A stretch of DNA of 37,448 nt from positions 1-37,448 of IMG/VR virus record IMGVR_UViG_3300025009_000256. The stretch is one strand, 5' to 3'. Made by a program: the position numbers and the translations under genes. Position 1 is the first letter of the stretch. Each line of letters opens with the position of its first letter. This DNA is from a virus. Below the pieces are notes generated by a model. That model worked only from the letters and a program-made list of their open reading frames with translations, had not been told where the DNA came from and ran no database searches. Below are positions 2,120 through 36,595 of this stretch, piece after piece.

Positions 2120-2422
2120 ATGGGTCAACAACGAAAGAATTTCAGCGACTTGAACGAGAATGGCCAACTTGGGGATTGGTGCTTTCTCAAAAATGAAGAT
2201 CTGCATTTGCTCTTGCGCTATCCCCGCACCGATGGTGAACCGTATCCCGAAGGATGGGAGCACCGCGGCGAGATTGTTAGTTTACTCATCAGTCGTGAAC
2301 CGAACGTCCCCAAACATTGGCAATGGAATGGGAGCCTAGACGCTCCGACCCTAACTCCATCCATCAATGTCATCGGGAAATGGCATGGCTATTTGAGAGA
2401 TGGGAAGTTGATCACAGTATGA
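2120..2422 (+). CDS. DUF6527-like protein
   Basis: A 100-residue protein. The C-terminal pattern W-x-NGSLDAPTLTPSI followed by W-H-G-Y-L-R-DGKL resembles the DUF6527 family of small phage and bacterial proteins of unknown function. I chose ATG at 2120 because AAGGA sits 7 nt upstream at 2108-2112; an in-frame ATG at 2084 would overlap the previous gene and lacks a ribosome site. It ends in an ATGA overlap with the second ParB-methyltransferase. The family name is from memory of the motif and would need a profile search. Confidence 0.65.
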   Translation: MGQQRKNFSDLNENGQLGDWCFLKNEDLHLLLRYPRTDGEPYPEGWEHRGEIVSLLISREPNVPKHWQWNGSLDAPTLTPSINVIGKWHGYLRDGKLITV

Positions 2423-3663
2423 CCGATCTCCCCTACATTGCTGTATCTCTCCAGCCCCTGGCTGTGCCGATCGGCAGTCTGCATGAAGATCCTGCCAATG
2501 CGCGCGTGGGGCACGACGTGGCACGCATCTCTGCATCTCTCAAGGCTTATGGTCAACGGAAACCAATCGTCGCCAACCGCCTGCAGGATGGCAAGATCGA
2601 AGCGGGCAACGGAACATTCCGGGCTGCCAAGCAACTAGGCTGGACCCACATTGCTGTGGTCTTCGTGGATGACGACCCTGCCACTGCAGCCGCGTTTGGG
2701 ATTGCAGACAACCGGGTGGCAGAGTTCAGCCGATGGGACGAAGACGTGCTGCGCGAGATCTCTGCCAGCGTGGGAGACCTGTTTACCGGATTTGAGCCCG
2801 CCGAACTGGATGACCTGGTAGGGAAGACCGTTTCCACCGAAACGCCCACGGCGGAAGACCCGGGCGCGGAGCCGGAGCGTGCCGACGAGCTGCTGGTCAA
2901 GTGGCAGGTACAGATCGGGCAGGTGTGGCAATGTGGACCGCACCGCTTGATGTGCGGGGACTCCACCAAGCGGTTAGACGTGGCGCGGTTGATGGGCAAG
3001 GATCTCGCCCGGATGATCTGGAGCGACCCGCCCTGGAATGTGAATTACGGCGGTGGGGTGGATAGCGACAATGCCCAGGGGTACAAGGTCCGGGTCATGA
3101 ACAACGATAACCTGGGAAAGGAATTCCCATATTTCGTGGAGAAATTCACCGGGTTGATGTATGCATTCTGTGTACCCGGAGCGCCGATCTACGTGGCGAT
3201 GGGTGCCCAGGAGTGGCCGGTCATCGATCACTGGCTGCGCGTGAGCGGGTTCCACTGGTCGAGCACCATCGTGTGGGTCAAGGATCAACTGGTGCTATCC
3301 AGGAAGGATTACCACACGCAATATGAACCGCTGTGGTACGGATGGCGAGGCGATGCCGCCCGCCTGCAGGAAGTCGTGGACCGCAAACAATCCGATGTGT
3401 GGCTGATCGACCGACCGAAGAAGAGCGAGGAGCACCCGACCATGAAACCGCTGGAGTTGGTCGAGCGGTCGCTATTGAACTCCAGCAAGCCGGGCGATAT
3501 CGTGCTGGACTTGTTCGCAGGATCTGGCACGACGCTCCTCGCTTGCGAACGACAAGGGCGCATCTGCCGCACTATGGACAATGACCCAAAATACGCGGCG
3601 GTATGTCTGGAACGTTGGGCCGTGGCTACCGGGCAACAGCCAGAATTGGAAGGAATATCTTGA
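2419..3663 (+). CDS. ParB-like nuclease domain fused to DNA methyltransferase (DPPW type)
   Basis: 414 residues from the ATG at 2419, which overlaps the previous stop as ATGA. The N-terminal ParB-like half is almost the same as in the gene at 518-1858 (shared KAYGQRKPI, EAGNGT, LGWTHIAVVFV, GIADNR). The catalytic half differs. Motif IV is SDPPWN at about 202-207, typical of N6-adenine methyltransferases, and the SAM motif LFAGSGTT is at 365-372. MKPLELVERSLL precedes it, as in beta-class m6A enzymes. The two proteins thus share a targeting domain but carry different catalytic types. It is translationally coupled to the second terS gene through a TTGA overlap. Confidence 0.9.
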   Translation: MTDLPYIAVSLQPLAVPIGSLHEDPANARVGHDVARISASLKAYGQRKPIVANRLQDGKIEAGNGTFRAAKQLGWTHIAVVFVDDDPATAAAFGIADNRVAEFSRWDEDVLREISASVGDLFTGFEPAELDDLVGKTVSTETPTAEDPGAEPERADELLVKWQVQIGQVWQCGPHRLMCGDSTKRLDVARLMGKDLARMIWSDPPWNVNYGGGVDSDNAQGYKVRVMNNDNLGKEFPYFVEKFTGLMYAFCVPGAPIYVAMGAQEWPVIDHWLRVSGFHWSSTIVWVKDQLVLSRKDYHTQYEPLWYGWRGDAARLQEVVDRKQSDVWLIDRPKKSEEHPTMKPLELVERSLLNSSKPGDIVLDLFAGSGTTLLACERQGRICRTMDNDPKYAAVCLERWAVATGQQPELEGIS

Positions 3664-4139
3664 AAGGTCGCAGGCCAAAGCCATCCGTCGTCAGGAAATT
3701 AGAAGGCAATCCAGGCAAGCGGGCGATGAACAAACAAGAGCCCAAGGCTGCCGCAGGCGTTCCCAAGTGTCCCGAACATCTGAAAGGCGTTGCGCGCACT
3801 GAATGGAAGCGTATCATTTTGGAGCTGGCCGAGATGAAAGTGCTCTCGAGGGTGGACCGCGCCGAACTGACTCTATGTTGTTCCGCCTGGGGCATGTACG
3901 TGAAGGCATGCAAAAAGATCGAAAAAGAGGGGGAGGTCATCATCAGCGATGGTGGAGGTATGTACCAGAATCCGTGGGTGGCGATTCGCAACAGAAGTAT
4001 GGAGCAGATTCATAAGTTTTATACCGAATTTGGGATGACACCGTCCAGCCGGTCGCGCATCAAAGTGGAGACACCGACCGAAGAGGATGAGATGGCAAGT
4101 CTCCTTTTTGGATCGAAGGTAAAGGTCAACAAGCAGTGA
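3660..4139 (+). CDS. terS: Terminase small subunit, P27 family (copy 2)
   Basis: Using the TTG at 3660, with GGAAGGA six bases upstream (3648-3654), the protein is 159 residues, exactly the length of copy 1. An upstream ATG at 3603 would add 19 residues with no family similarity. It carries the P27 signature (GRRPKPSVVRKLEGNPGKR, about residues 3-21) and the EFGMTPSSRSR motif, so both copies are intact. It directly precedes the large subunit gene, the usual partner position. Copy 1 and copy 2 have diverged clearly in the middle, so they may recognise different sites or form mixed rings. Confidence 0.92.
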   Translation: MKGRRPKPSVVRKLEGNPGKRAMNKQEPKAAAGVPKCPEHLKGVARTEWKRIILELAEMKVLSRVDRAELTLCCSAWGMYVKACKKIEKEGEVIISDGGGMYQNPWVAIRNRSMEQIHKFYTEFGMTPSSRSRIKVETPTEEDEMASLLFGSKVKVNKQ

Positions 4140-6346: not shown

Positions 6347-6355
6347 TGCTATAAT
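6347..6355 (+). promoter_or_regulatory. Extended -10 promoter of late operon 1
   Basis: TGC followed by TATAAT (6350-6355) is a perfect extended -10 element. No good -35 is seen at the normal distance; TTGATT at about 6337 is only 7 nt away. The expected start point is near 6361-6363, so the transcript would begin about a dozen bases before the conserved hairpin at 6375. Confidence 0.65.
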
Positions 6356-6361
6356 GCTTTC

Positions 6362-6446
6362 AACAATTGAAGCACTCCTGGTGTAGACCGGGAGAATTTG
6401 TCGGAAATGAGCGCCCGACTCTCTATGTGAGAGTCGGGCGCTTTTT
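6362..6446 (+). ncRNA. Late leader RNA, copy 1: hairpin, antiterminator segment and terminator
   Basis: Hairpin P1 is 6375-6381 paired with 6388-6394 around the loop UGUAGA. GUCGG at 6400-6404 can pair with CCGAC at 6415-6419, which is part of the 5' arm of the terminator below. The two pairings exclude each other, as in attenuators and riboswitches. The same order, the same loop and compensatory stem changes recur at 36527-36595. It lies between a promoter and the peptidase-portal-head-tail operon. I do not recognise a known RNA family. Confidence 0.7.
6410..6446 (+). terminator. Intrinsic terminator of leader RNA copy 1
   Basis: A perfect 13-bp GC-rich stem (6411-6423 with 6429-6441), loop TATGT, then TTTTT at 6442-6446. 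It sits before the peptidase gene, so transcripts must read through it for the lysis, head and tail genes to be made. Confidence 0.88.
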
Positions 6447-6467
6447 GTTTTGCTTTTGGAGGTAGCG

Positions 6468-26016: not shown

Positions 26017-26087
26017 GCGTGAGTAGCACAATGGCAATGCGCAGCGGCTCCACCGCTGAGATGGTGGTTCGACCCCACCCTCCCGCT
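26017..26087 (+). tRNA. tRNA-Gly-like (anticodon TCC), atypical loop
   Basis: A 71-nt cloverleaf can be drawn. Acceptor 26017-26023 with 26080-26086 has one mismatch. D-stem 26026-26028 with 26038-26040 has GG in its loop. Anticodon stem 26042-26046 with 26054-26058 is perfect. T-stem 26063-26067 with 26075-26079 is perfect with loop TTCGACC. Discriminator is T. Overall it resembles bacterial tRNA-Gly(TCC). Odd points: position 33 is C, not U; positions 32 and 38 are G and C; the acceptor has a T-C mismatch; CCA is not encoded. It may be a true phage tRNA, a decaying one, or a tRNA mimic. Confidence 0.72.
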
Positions 26088-26095
26088 CATACACT

Positions 26096-28801: not shown

Positions 28802-29178
28802 TGATGCCGACCATCTTATCTAAAAACGACTGGGTGAGGCGCGTGGTCAAGCTCGATAACTCGAAGTCGCTGTACACCTGCGAAGAGTGCGGCGGAGAAG
28901 GGATGACTACGTGCCCTTACTGCGGACATGAAACCGAGTGTACCGCATGCGGAAGCGAGGGAATGCTGTCCCATCCAACCACTGCCGATTATCGCAACCG
29001 CAAGGATCTGGATCTGCGAATGCTGGATTGTTTTCTCAACGGTACGCCGTTGCCAGAGCATATCTACAGTATCTACAGAGCGTTGGCAGCCTGCGAACCG
29101 AAGGGAGAGCGCGGCAAGCCTGTCAAAATCCTGCTGCGTCTCCCGCTGACGGGAGAGGTGCAAACATGCCTACTCTGA
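28801..29178 (+). CDS. DnaJ-type zinc-finger protein without J domain
   Basis: 125 residues. CEECGGEG, CPYCGHE and CTACGSEG (Cys 27/30, 38/41, 47/50) match the CxxCxGxG repeats of the DnaJ zinc centre, though only three units are present. The C-terminus is unassigned. A separate J-domain protein is encoded at 35393-35911, so the two parts of DnaJ occur in different early genes here. Confidence 0.65.
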   Translation: MMPTILSKNDWVRRVVKLDNSKSLYTCEECGGEGMTTCPYCGHETECTACGSEGMLSHPTTADYRNRKDLDLRMLDCFLNGTPLPEHIYSIYRALAACEPKGERGKPVKILLRLPLTGEVQTCLL

Positions 29179-29546
29179 CCGATGAGCAACTGGACGTGCA
29201 GGTGCGCTCGATCCTGCTGGTGCACAAAGGCAAGGCGCATCGCATCAGCCGCTGGCAGCTGGTGGAGATGGTGTTCGGGCGGGAGGCCGCCACCAACCGC
29301 GGCAACAACAATCCCTACGACCGCCGCATCCGCGACTCCATCAGCCGCTGGCGCGATGTCGACCTGATCGTCTCCTCTTCATCCTCCGGCGGATACTGGC
29401 TGGCCGAAGACATGAACGATGTGGAAACGATCGCCCAGGAATACATTTCCCGATCTCGGGAGATGGAGGAGCTGGCCAAGAACCTACGCAGGCGGGGCAC
29501 TGAGGTGTTCGGTCCGCAGATGCCACTCTTCGGAAAAGTGAACTGA
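29166..29546 (+). CDS. Hypothetical protein, possible winged-helix
   Basis: 126 residues from ATG 29166, which overlaps the zinc-finger gene by 13 bp and has GAGAGG upstream. LVHKGKAHRISRWQLVEMVFG, then NNPYDRRIRDSISRWRDVDLIVSSSSSGGYWL looks like a winged-helix DNA-binding fold with a C-terminal coiled coil. Function unknown. Confidence 0.65.
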   Translation: MPTLTDEQLDVQVRSILLVHKGKAHRISRWQLVEMVFGREAATNRGNNNPYDRRIRDSISRWRDVDLIVSSSSSGGYWLAEDMNDVETIAQEYISRSREMEELAKNLRRRGTEVFGPQMPLFGKVN

Positions 29547-33570: not shown

Positions 33571-34299
33571 ATGAGCAAAGACACAAAAAAGACACCGATC
33601 CGATCCGTGCTTTTATGGGGTATGGCCGGCGTGCAGGCAGTCCGATATGCGCGGGCATTTGCCATCGCTGAGGTAGGCCGTACAGCGCTGACAGGCATGG
33701 CTGGCGTGGATGCAGTCCTAGCATATGCCTCACTGGCCGCAGGCCTGGCTATGGGACTGGGAATGTCGCTCGGCCTGGCATTCGTGGCAAGCAGGCTGCG
33801 CAGCCTGAAGGGTAAGAAGCAAACTCGCTGGACAACCGCACTGTTTGCAGCCATGCTGACGATATCGCCTCTCGTGCTGGCGCCGATGATCAAGGGCACG
33901 ATGGCAGAGTGGCTTTCCAACCTGCTGTACTACCCGCTCATCCAATGGCTATGGGCCTCGGGTGTGGTCATCCTGCCTGATGCACTGATCGCTGCCATTG
34001 GCTTCATGGATCGCTCAGCGACGCTGGGAGCGACGCTCAGCGACGTGCCAGCGAAGGCCAGCGACGCTGGGAGCGACGCTCAGCGACGCTCAGCGACGCT
34101 GAAAAGTCGCTCAACGAAGAAATCAGCGACGCTCAGCGACGCTCCAGCGAGGGTTTACCGATGTGAATGCGGCCTGACGTTCGCTGACAGGTTCAAATAT
34201 TCAGGTCATACACGTACGTGTGCGAAAAGACAAGAGATCAAGGCGGGAAAGGGATTGATCGCTGTGGAGATTCCAACGAAGACGGAGGTGGAGCGATGA
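33571..34299 (+). CDS. Membrane protein with C-terminal zinc finger; gene carries iterons
   Basis: 242 residues. Likely membrane segments at about 46-72, 90-106 and 124-146. A linker (about 148-192) is coded by the palindromic DNA repeats, then a C2HC-like zinc finger (Cys198, Cys200, His213, Cys217). The gene overlaps the replication initiator gene by 4 bp. Membrane anchoring next to an origin could tie replication to the membrane; this is inference. Confidence 0.7.
   Translation: MSKDTKKTPIRSVLLWGMAGVQAVRYARAFAIAEVGRTALTGMAGVDAVLAYASLAAGLAMGLGMSLGLAFVASRLRSLKGKKQTRWTTALFAAMLTISPLVLAPMIKGTMAEWLSNLLYYPLIQWLWASGVVILPDALIAAIGFMDRSATLGATLSDVPAKASDAGSDAQRRSATLKSRSTKKSATLSDAPARVYRCECGLTFADRFKYSGHTRTCAKRQEIKAGKGLIAVEIPTKTEVER
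34017..34143 (+). repeat. Eight palindromic 9-mers, iteron-like (putative origin)
   Basis: AGCGACGCT occurs perfectly at 34017, 34029, 34060, 34072, 34082, 34092, 34125 and 34135, with imperfect copies at 34039 and 34050. Each unit is a 4+1+4 palindrome. Copies fall in all three reading frames, so selection acts on DNA rather than on the protein. The gene for a DnaA-N-containing initiator begins about 150 bp downstream. This is the layout of an iteron origin. Confidence 0.72.
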
Positions 34300-35396
34300 G
34301 ACCACAATTTACACAGTTCGAAGCCATGCTATACGGGAACGTTCGCTACCAGCGAGCAGGATGGCTGATTCCGTTGTTTATCCGGTTCGCGCCGATGGGG
34401 CGAGATGATGTGGTGGATCGCACAGGCATCAGCGAGGTGACCGCGGCCAAGTACCTGACCGACCTTGCACAGCTGGGCATCATCATCCGCCAGGGATACC
34501 ACGACGGCTATGTGCTGACTGCAGGTGGCCAGCAGCTCATTGCCAAGCCATTGTTGGAGGCCGTGTTGGAGGCCGGCGAGCCGACCGAGGTCACGATAGA
34601 CGCGGTAGCCCAGGAGCCGGCGGAAAGCAAAGGTGCAATTTATACCTTTGTCTCCTCAGAGAATCAGTCATTAATAATACCTGAATCAGATCCTCTGATT
34701 GAGGAGGATATGAATCATCCTCAATCAGTTGACGCGAAAGGTGCAATTTGCACCTTTGAGAAAATGATCGCCCACACGGATATCCTGTTCGGTGACGGGG
34801 TTTCGGGTGTGGGCCTGAAGAGACGTGATTTCAAATACACATTGGGGTGGATCGCACAGGCCTACGTGCAGGGGCAGAACGGAAAATTGCACTCGCCACA
34901 GGCGCTGATCTACAAGCGGTTGAAGGAACCAGTCAATCCACCACAGAGAAAGTATTTTGAGCATCCAACGGACTATCTGCCAGACGAATATCTGTCGGCG
35001 ATTGGTCTGTGGCGGAAAACCTGCGATTGGTGCGAGGTGGAAATCACAGATTTGGATGCATACAACGCGCATCGCGGGCAGTGTGTCATGACCCGCCAGC
35101 AACCAGAGATCGAAGTGGTCGAGGTGATGGCGGATGAAACAGTTACGAATGACGTCCTGCAATGCTGGGACGGTGTGTTGGGGAGACTGCAGGCTAAAAC
35201 GCCCAAGGCATCATTCGAGACCTGGATGCGTGATACCACGCCAGTGCATTGCGAGGGTGGCGTGTTGACGGTGGCTGCACGCAATGCATTTGCACGGGAC
35301 TGGTTGGCCAGCCGCATGACCGCGACGGTCGAGAAGATGGCCGGGATGCGGGGGAAATTTGTGGCCGGTGTTGCCACGGAAACGGAGGAAGAATGA
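34296..35396 (+). CDS. Replication initiator-like protein, wHTH plus DnaA-N-like domain
   Basis: 366 residues from ATG 34296. The N-terminus (about 15-95) looks like a winged helix (DDVVDRTGISEVTAAKYLTDLAQLGII). A Cys/His motif (TCDWCEVEITDLDAYNAHRGQC, about 238-262) may bind zinc. The C-terminus (about 290-350: WDGVLGRLQAKTPKASFETWMRDT) resembles DnaA domain I/N, which docks the replicative helicase. This fits phage initiators that bind iterons and recruit helicase. No ATPase motif is visible. Confidence 0.8.
   Translation: MRPQFTQFEAMLYGNVRYQRAGWLIPLFIRFAPMGRDDVVDRTGISEVTAAKYLTDLAQLGIIIRQGYHDGYVLTAGGQQLIAKPLLEAVLEAGEPTEVTIDAVAQEPAESKGAIYTFVSSENQSLIIPESDPLIEEDMNHPQSVDAKGAICTFEKMIAHTDILFGDGVSGVGLKRRDFKYTLGWIAQAYVQGQNGKLHSPQALIYKRLKEPVNPPQRKYFEHPTDYLPDEYLSAIGLWRKTCDWCEVEITDLDAYNAHRGQCVMTRQQPEIEVVEVMADETVTNDVLQCWDGVLGRLQAKTPKASFETWMRDTTPVHCEGGVLTVAARNAFARDWLASRMTATVEKMAGMRGKFVAGVATETEEE
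34629..34757. repeat. Paired palindromes flanking A+T-rich AATCAG repeats
   Basis: Two related 21-bp palindromes: 34629-34649 (imperfect) and 34737-34757 (perfect 10-bp arms AAAGGTGCAA). Between them AATCAG occurs at 34662, 34684 and 34723 and reversed at 34695-34700, in an A+T-rich stretch. They lie inside the initiator gene, as the lambda origin lies in gene O, and could be a second part of the origin. Confidence 0.55.
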
Positions 35397-35911
35397 CACG
35401 CAGGTTCACAGCAACTCAACAATCCACGGTTCGCGACCTCCAGCGGATCATGGGCAAGATCGGTGCCACATCCCTGCGCATCGAACAGGATGTGATGGGC
35501 GGAGGCGTGAAGGTGACGTTTGACCGGGCTGGGAAGCGCTACGTGCGGGAGTGCGTCCGCTGGGCAGATAGCATCGATAACTTGCGCGCCATCGGCCTGC
35601 AGATTGACTACTTGTATCGAGCGCTGGAACTATATGGCGTGGAGATGAGTGAGACGAATTTTGACCGTGAATTCGACACTATCTTCGGCGGTTTTCTTGC
35701 GGCACCCGATGACAGTGCATTACTGCTCGGAGATGGCAAGGCGGCATGGTGGGATGTGCTGGGTGTCAAGCAAACTGCCACGAAAGACGATATCCGCAAT
35801 GCGTTCAAGGCGTTGGCCCGGATTCATCACCCTGACGTCGGAGGCAGCGAGGAGGATTTCAAACGATTACGCCAGGCCTACGATGATGCGATCAAGGCGG
35901 TGAAGAAATGA
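35393..35911 (+). CDS. J-domain (DnaJ-like) protein
   Basis: 172 residues from ATG 35393. The C-terminal J domain (about 119-170) has AWWDVLGVKQTATKDDIRNAFKALARIHHPDVGG with the essential HPD at 146-148. The N-terminal 118 residues are phage-specific. J proteins activate DnaK. Next to the initiator this suggests help in remodelling the origin complex, as DnaJ/DnaK do for lambda O-P-DnaB. Confidence 0.88.
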   Translation: MTRRFTATQQSTVRDLQRIMGKIGATSLRIEQDVMGGGVKVTFDRAGKRYVRECVRWADSIDNLRAIGLQIDYLYRALELYGVEMSETNFDREFDTIFGGFLAAPDDSALLLGDGKAAWWDVLGVKQTATKDDIRNAFKALARIHHPDVGGSEEDFKRLRQAYDDAIKAVKK

Positions 35912-36189
35912 ATCCTGATATCTCCCTTGCGACCCTGCGCCGGCAATTGCGGGCGCGTGCACTGGCCGAGCAGAATATCCACCATCTGGCGCAGGCCATC
36001 TTCCAGGAAGGAGCGAAAGTGCAATATCGGGTCACTATGGCAAATGACACGGTGCGCGAGTATTTCGGGGCCGTAGTGGCTGTGTGTGGCATCCCTGGCA
36101 CAACCCGGGTGAGGGTGCGGAACCTGGCCACGCTGAAGGAACGGGAGGTCGGGCTCGAGCAGATCACTGGATTGGTGCAGGAGGAATGA
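35908..36189 (+). CDS. Hypothetical early protein
   Basis: 93 residues in an ATGA overlap with the J-domain gene. After a helical start there is a beta-rich part (KVQYRVTMANDTVREYFGAVVAVCG, RVRVRNLATLKEREVGLEQI). No family recognised. Confidence 0.6.
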   Translation: MNPDISLATLRRQLRARALAEQNIHHLAQAIFQEGAKVQYRVTMANDTVREYFGAVVAVCGIPGTTRVRVRNLATLKEREVGLEQITGLVQEE

Positions 36190-36476
36190 TGCCAGCAAAT
36201 GAGCGCAGGTTGTGGCCACGGCCAGCAATCCACGAGCATGTGCTGGGCGAGGTGAAATTCGTTTTCATCGGACAATCGCGAGTAAGGGCGCTGATGCTGT
36301 ATGAGCATTCTGTTGATCGCAATGCAGTGCCTGACGAAATGCCACAGATCCGCGGGCGATTGACCGGCGGTGACATGGATGAAATCCGTTGCACGATCTG
36401 CAAGAGACCAGTTGCTGACTGGCATATCGGTGAAGACGCAATGGAGGCGCTACTGAGCAGTGTTCGAAAATCGTGA
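36186..36476 (+). CDS. Hypothetical protein with Cys motif, last early gene
   Basis: 96 residues in an ATGA overlap. CTICKRPVADWHIGED near residues 73-88 is a single CxxC, perhaps half of a zinc site. The late promoter -10 of leader copy 2 begins 2 bp after its stop. Confidence 0.6.
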   Translation: MMPANERRLWPRPAIHEHVLGEVKFVFIGQSRVRALMLYEHSVDRNAVPDEMPQIRGRLTGGDMDEIRCTICKRPVADWHIGEDAMEALLSSVRKS

Positions 36477-36478
36477 TG

Positions 36479-36484
36479 TATAAT
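36479..36484 (+). promoter_or_regulatory. -10 element of late operon 2
   Basis: Perfect TATAAT just after the last early gene, without a recognisable -35, as in late operon 1. A TAATAT at 36513-36518 is an alternative and is closer to the hairpin. Lack of -35 in both copies suggests an activator. Confidence 0.5.
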
Positions 36485-36519: not shown

Positions 36520-36595
36520 GTTTGCACCCTTGGTGTAGACCGAGGGAGTTGTCGGAAGCGATGCACCCGGCGCCGTAATGGCGTCGGGTGCTTTT
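36520..36595 (+). ncRNA. Late leader RNA, copy 2
   Basis: Hairpin P1: 36527-36533 with 36540-36546 and loop UGUAGA (36534-36539). GUCGG at 36551-36555 can pair with CCGGC at 36567-36571 in the 5' arm of the terminator. Compared with copy 1 the P1 stem differs at three positions and pairing is kept. Flanking bases (TTG...GCAC before, TTGTCGGAA after) are also conserved. Confidence 0.7.
36563..36595 (+). terminator. Intrinsic terminator of leader RNA copy 2
   Basis: 12-bp stem with one G-U (36563-36574 with 36580-36591), 5-nt loop, then TTTT. Located before the holin-like gene. Confidence 0.85.

Follow-up and report, generated by a model that had tools for sequence, protein, structure and literature searches.

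Late-gene antitermination timing is known in detail in few phages, mostly lambdoid, and the targets described are DNA (Q), a hairpin together with Nus factors (N), or an RNA that acts alone (put). The lambda Q protein, encoded immediately upstream of the late promoter, is loaded at a DNA site, qut, during a sigma-dependent pause, and put is already active once transcribed. The RAT element of BglG/LicT systems is a single imperfect hairpin bound by the CAT domain. In HK022, put comprises two cis-acting RNA copies near the transcript 5′ end, which act alone on RNA polymerase to serve early genes (PMC9378689). LoaP is a NusG paralog associated with a leader hairpin common to two operons, dfn and mln, and followed by an intrinsic terminator (PMC12691694). 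The bipartite conAn system of pLS20-type plasmids pairs a protein with an RNA, stands at the head of a single operon and acts processively across more than 20 terminators (PMC8955417), and canT of Tn916 is most likely a cis-acting processive RNA (PMC11658703).

The stretch of DNA analyzed here, which we call the window, comprises the 37,448 bases of a single virus record (IMG/VR IMGVR_UViG_3300025009_000256) and carries two related leaders. Copy A (6371–6450) separates the terminase genes from the portal-head genes; copy B (36523–36595) lies ahead of an HNH gene and, over the record ends, the terminase genes (all by PHROG matches). As in the pR′-tR′-Q arrangement of lambda (and of 21Q and 82Q), a late promoter is followed by a short leader and a terminator, with a protein gene directly upstream, and we propose that the late genes of the window are likewise reached only by read-through. 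Unlike the lambda Q system, what is conserved in the window phage is an RNA structure, covarying and overlapping with the terminator, and there are two late leaders rather than one. Searches of the record for Q-family antiterminators (PF06530 and PF03589) gave no match, whereas control genomes did match. The leaders resemble HK022 put in being two related RNA copies near the 5′ end, one per operon; put, however, consists of two stem-loops that do not pair with a terminator, and here the 3′ strands of a pseudoknot (P0 and P2, below) lie in the terminator arm. They also share with dfn and mln a small leader hairpin placed before an intrinsic terminator and common to two operons, but the dfn hairpin has a UNCG loop and no described terminator pairing, and a search of the phage record for a NusG-family protein (PF02357) found none, against matches in 10 of 14 controls. 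Like conAn, the arrangement would join a protein (a candidate, Q96, in the window) to an RNA on a mobile element; unlike conAn, the window element overlaps a single terminator, and it differs too from the cis-acting processive RNA of canT. With RAT leaders and pseudoknot riboswitches it shares an antiterminator whose strands lie in the terminator arm, so that the two forms are exclusive; it differs from RAT in being an H-type pseudoknot with an inserted hairpin and in having no Rfam family. By analogy, the leader logic appears to be that of lambda pR′-tR′-Q, although the tests made give no ground for placing the leaders in the Q, put, LoaP or known riboswitch families. In mechanism they come closest to antiterminator/terminator leaders and to riboswitches built on pseudoknots, the likely ligand here being a phage protein.

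Two leader copies and their predicted folds

A sequence-only reading of the window had placed duplicated elements at 6375–6446 and 36527–36595. Inspection found both at these sites, but the conserved unit starts four bases earlier in each, with the P0 5′ strand at 6371 and 36523. The order given in that reading, a hairpin (P1) followed after a linker of 4–5 nt by GUCGGAA and then by a terminator with a U tract, is seen in both copies. A 26-nt pattern allowing up to three mismatches gives 0.03 chance matches per shuffled window, and a covariance model run on the window recovers the two copies (E values of 1.5e-22 and 1e-20) and no third. Placing the copies ahead of two late operons presupposed a circular genome, and this too holds: in relatives the two copies (at 1213 and 9276 in contig L314) share a contig and enclose the HNH-to-TerL genes, and the succession of copy B, HNH, terminase and copy A on these single contigs supports the same order across the window ends. 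The window encodes an integrase (PHROG match), from which we infer that the phage is temperate. Two terminase small subunit paralogues (46–525 and 3603–4139, both PHROG 83) flank a pair of paralogous ParB–methyltransferase fusions (518–1858 and 2317–3663), and a tRNA-Gly (TCC) lies in the early region at 26017–26088.

All leader, promoter and terminator features described here for the window, as well as the Q96 gene, lie on the plus strand. In copy A, P1 (6375–6394) is a 7-bp hairpin of sequence CUCCUGG-UGUAGA-CCGGGAG with its loop at 6382–6387; in copy B it occupies 36527–36546, reads CCCUUGG-UGUAGA-CCGAGGG and has its loop at 36534–36539. The two stems had been said to differ at three positions, but only two pairs differ (U-A/C-G and C-G/U-A, both compensatory); the U-G pair is common to both copies and is no third difference. 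The full order of the RNA is P0 5′ (NGCA), P1, a linker of 3–7 nt, P2 5′ (GUCGG), a short AAnnGA, P0 3′ (UGCN), one or two bases and P2 3′ (CCGAC). Because P0 and P2 interleave, they make an H-type pseudoknot, whose first loop contains P1. In copy A, the P0 5′ strand (AGCA, 6371–6374), an instance of the conserved NGCA that covaries with its 3′ partner in the family, forms a weak helix of two pairs only with 6410–6413, and the P2 5′ strand (GUCGG, 6400–6404) pairs with CCGAC at 6415–6419. In copy B, the P0 strands, which likewise covary in the family, are UGCA at 36523–36526 and UGCA at 36562–36565, and GUCGG at 36551–36555 pairs with CCGGC at 36567–36571. The pairing of GUCGG with CCGAC or CCGGC proposed in the earlier reading is thus borne out as P2, which covaries across the family. 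Its view that this pairing competes with the terminator also stands, but the antiterminator consists of the two helices P0 and P2, not of GUCGG alone.

The terminators of the two leaders, with stems of 12–15 bp and a U tract, far exceed every other terminator-like site of the window in strength, and its late operons contain no further strong terminators. Terminator A (6409–6450) has a 15-bp stem at 6409–6443 and a hairpin energy of −28.2 kcal/mol; terminator B (36563–36595) has its stem at 36563–36591 and a hairpin energy of −25.6 kcal/mol. The basal half of the terminator 5′ arm is made up of the 3′ strands of P0 and P2 (6410–6419 within the arm at 6409–6423 in copy A; 36562–36571 against 36563–36574 in copy B), so that the pseudoknot and the terminator exclude each other. 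The mutual exclusion claimed from the two copies is therefore supported by strand overlap as well as by covariation, and exclusive, covarying pairings over a terminator arm are the general mark of a two-state antiterminator/terminator leader. The computed energies are −6.2 kcal/mol (copy A) and −5.6 kcal/mol (copy B) for P2 and about −2.5 kcal/mol for P0. When the RNA is cut before the 3′ arm of the terminator, the predicted fold consists of P1 and P2. On these energies, the pseudoknot should be able to form first and would then be displaced unless held.

A family of covarying leaders

We found about 60 copies of the element in contigs of related uncultured phages, usually two per phage, one ahead of the HNH-terminase operon and the other downstream of the terminase genes. 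These copies came from pattern scans of viral contigs, from contigs with a related terminase and from contigs with Q96. The least biased scan required only GCA, the P1 hairpin and a terminator, leaving P2 free; it yielded 40 distinct elements (after removal of one false match and one duplicate), all of which keep at least four of the five P2 pairs. Such conservation is a real test of the element against chance. Further divergent copies are detected by the covariance model.

Covariation was counted in 43 distinct elements, as well as in a set of 26, with the columns kept in register by cutting out loops and linkers; some sequences in the covariation set came from scans that required P2, whereas the 40-element set did not. 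Double changes occur in 13 of the 16 pairs, including six of the seven P1 pairs, and 97.8% of the cells are paired. None of 500 shuffles of the 43 elements reached any of the covariation measures, a count that is not a probability because the element sequences are related. When the partner strand is slid by one column, pairing falls to 34–47%, and these slid controls, together with the number of distinct pair types, make the stronger argument. For P2 the pair types are GUCGG with CCGAC, CCGGC or CCGAU, AUCGG:CCGAU, GACGG:CCGUC, GAUGG:CCAUC, GUUGG:CCAAC, UUCGG:CCGAA and UCAGA:UCUGA; for P0 they are UGCA:UGCA, UGCA:UGCG, CGCA:UGCG, GGCA:UGCC and GGUU:AACC. Since the P2 5′ strand lies outside the terminator, P2 covariation cannot derive from the terminator stem. 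The covarying leader proposed from the two copies of the window thus proves to have homologues with compensatory changes, the absence of which would have counted against it. This bears directly on the reading that the leaders are ordinary terminators preceded by a hairpin and kept by close relatedness, with no switch at all. The elements do come from one phage lineage and their terminators are strong, but that reading would leave the compensatory changes in P0 and P2 without reason and is contradicted by them, and a leader terminator ahead of both late operons silences them unless it is bypassed; we regard it as highly improbable.

The loop of P1, described as an invariant UGUAGA, is constant among the nearest relatives only; the loops of the family include CAUAGG, UAUAUGA, UACUUGA, UUGAU, AAUUUGU and UGAAAUUGG, and loop invariance was rejected. 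Nearly invariant across the family are GGA, GA and the U.G pair of P1. The statement that no known motif is present agrees with our search of Rfam 15, riboswitches included, in which no family matches the leaders at the gathering cut-off; the matches obtained at relaxed thresholds all fall far below it and are terminator-driven noise, and the single match at the cut-off in the window is a tRNA. A BLAST comparison of the leader with named phages returned two 26-base matches, which were rejected as chance. The leaders are a new RNA family, absent from Rfam 15, for which a switch between pseudoknot and terminator is well supported.

Some members depart from the usual arrangement. In L010 (2843–2899), copy B lacks the terminator 5′ arm and loop and retains P1 and GUCGG along with what is left of the 3′ arm; it is possibly a natural constitutive variant. 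Contigs L351 (1740 and 3300) and L357 (7739 and 4004, minus strand) carry tandem copies that both lie downstream of TerL, so that some relatives divide the late region further.

Promoters, Q96 and other candidate triggers

Copy A is preceded by an extended −10 promoter (TGC-TATAAT, 6347–6355), from which the RNA is expected to start near 6362. Among related A copies, TTGACA-N16/17-TATAAT or a near match to it is the usual promoter, its −10 box being 14–28 nt before P0; in a subgroup the promoter is further upstream and followed by another hairpin. For copy B, the −10 box TATAAT (GATGTATAAT) is at 36479–36484 with no −35 match; the layout is alike in related B copies, which have GATGTATAAT-like −10 boxes and no clear −35 match. 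Strong sigma-70-type late promoters in a phage with an integrase call for a lock, and the leader terminator is a plausible one. The expected 5′ end of the B transcript carries GAAAGGAGG (36491/36492–36500), which is Shine-Dalgarno-like with no conserved start codon after it. At this transcript end AAAGGAGG is common to most B leaders, and either GAAAGGAGG or AAAGGAGG is found in those of L047, L263, L275, L309, L311, L320 and others. A 5′ stabilizing Shine-Dalgarno sequence (STAB-SD) is known from Bacillus cry genes, and the B-leader sequences resemble it. A conserved hairpin with the loop core GGTGCCCCCCTCACCC lies between the terminase genes and copy A in L011, L043, L092, L263, L264, L265 and L275; cores of this type occur 26 times in the fetched loci, behind promoter-like sequences and in some cases with a LexA-like GAAC-N4-GTTC box. 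Possibly it represents a small RNA whose loop is C-rich; none was seen at the corresponding place in the window.

Directly upstream of copy B lies a gene for a 96-residue CxxC protein, Q96 (36186–36476), which ends 2 nt before the −10 box. No Q-like gene had been recognized in the sequence-only reading, but this conserved gene, ending at a late promoter, is a Q-like candidate and our candidate late antiterminator. Every relative that could be tested has it upstream of copy B. Q96 is present in all 18 of the whole records with an element that were examined, and 12 terminase relatives have neither Q96 nor the element. When viral contigs were scanned with the Q96 profile alone, 17 were found, and in 16 of them the element lies downstream; the last stops about 750 nt past Q96, yet has the element elsewhere. 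The gap between gene and element is below about 75 nt in 11 of 18 Q96 loci and 2.5 kb in one. L351 and L357, considered as exceptions lacking Q96, were rejected as such: both contigs start within the terminase genes, the copies that they carry all lie downstream of TerL, and the Q96 locus therefore falls outside them. The L332 record (67,683 bases) contains two Q96 genes along with four elements, arranged as a pair of phage-like units some 36 kb from each other, and possibly represents tandem related prophages. Just before Q96 in the window, a gene whose product combines the DnaA N-terminal domain with a winged-helix-like part (34218–35396) overlaps one for a DnaJ-domain protein (35249–35911).

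In an alignment of 19 Q96 sequences, His17, Cys68 and Cys71 are invariant; the pI is 6.9, so the protein is not strongly basic. Q96 has no match in named phages and plasmids or among Pfam, PHROG and PDB families (neither Pfam nor the PHROGs gave a Q family), and a scan of viral contigs with the single sequence found no relative, although the profile scan did. The confidence of the AlphaFold model (pLDDT) is 58 with 10 sequences and 83 with 19. No recognizable RNA-binding or antiterminator fold is seen in it, the predicted fold has no PDB match at E values under 0.001, and its best match among viral proteins (A0A1P8DJL1, E 0.006) is without function.

Within a genome, the P1 loops of copies A and B agree more often than when shuffled (P 0.0003; P 0.014 without the UGUAGA genomes), and their stems and P2 often differ. 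This agreement hints at a trans-acting reader of the loop, although shared descent could give the same result. The partial correlation of loop type with Q96 (0.26, P 0.025) is not clearly better than that with an HNH control (0.28, P 0.054), and the co-occurrence of Q96 and the element may reflect shared phage lineage only.

The sequence-only reading had left three effectors side by side, a new antiterminator protein, a small riboswitch and a put-like RNA; we judge a phage protein likelier than the latter two. Were the P0-P1-P2 pseudoknot a small-molecule aptamer, the late genes would answer a metabolite. The arrangement, in which the terminator arm is formed by the 3′ strands of a pseudoknot, is classic for riboswitches, and GGA, GA and the U.G pair of P1 are nearly invariant; against this, the P1 loop varies freely between phages and the identity of P2 also changes fully, no Rfam family reaches its cut-off, the element is seen only in phages of the Q96 group, and the agreement of the A and B loops within a genome suggests a phage-specific partner. 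We therefore hold a riboswitch to be improbable. We are similarly doubtful of a self-acting, put-like RNA that would bind RNA polymerase and make it resistant to terminators without a phage protein. HK022 likewise has two related cis-acting RNA copies of ~70 nt each, made of stem-loops, one per operon (PMC9378689), but the pairing partner in the present leaders is the terminator itself, and an element that acted alone, given its own overlapping terminator and the strong promoters of the relatives, would make the late genes constitutive; its co-occurrence with Q96 also argues against action by RNA alone.

A further possibility, which we consider rather unlikely, is that the switch is real and its trigger is a host protein or a second early protein of about 125 residues (frame 28938–29546, true start probably near 29166). 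The latter appears winged-helix-like by eye and has no Pfam match. It is present in 15 of 15 early regions compared and in 14 of 16 whole element records, and is absent from all 12 element-less relatives and from 50,697 named phage records. It was not found, however, in two element records that do have Q96 (67.7 kb and 31.6 kb, possibly incomplete), and its gene lies 2–8 kb upstream, not adjoining a late promoter.

A proposed two-state switch for late genes

We favor, as the probable reading, a default-off leader switch between pseudoknot and terminator that is opened when the pseudoknot is stabilized, most likely by Q96. Each leader, at the 5′ end of a late transcript, would be a two-state RNA switch. 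By default, the long terminator hairpin would fold and late transcription would end after ~80–110 nt. In the alternative state, P0 and P2 would pair into the pseudoknot that surrounds P1, keeping the basal half of the terminator 5′ arm occupied, and RNA polymerase would continue into the late genes. On its own the pseudoknot is far less stable than the terminator and so needs a partner to hold it. Q96, an early gene product, is the most likely candidate for this role; once made, it would bind both leaders and turn on the packaging operon and the structural-gene operon together.

More tentatively, and with somewhat less than even confidence, we propose that Q96 is the founder of a new class of late regulators: small, zinc-ribbon-like and with no known relatives in fold, it would turn on all late operons by clamping the pseudoknot of the nascent leader, blocking terminator folding locally and leaving RNA polymerase unmodified, with loop and protein co-evolving.

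Uncultured phages would thus have arrived at a separate solution, in which a pseudoknot built from the terminator's own arm stands before two operons and is served by one small candidate protein. The system is compact, with two parts of ~80 nt and 96 residues, and is directly testable in a reporter strain. It would add an RNA family, and possibly an antiterminator family, to those known, and it seems to offer phages a new means of timing their late genes.
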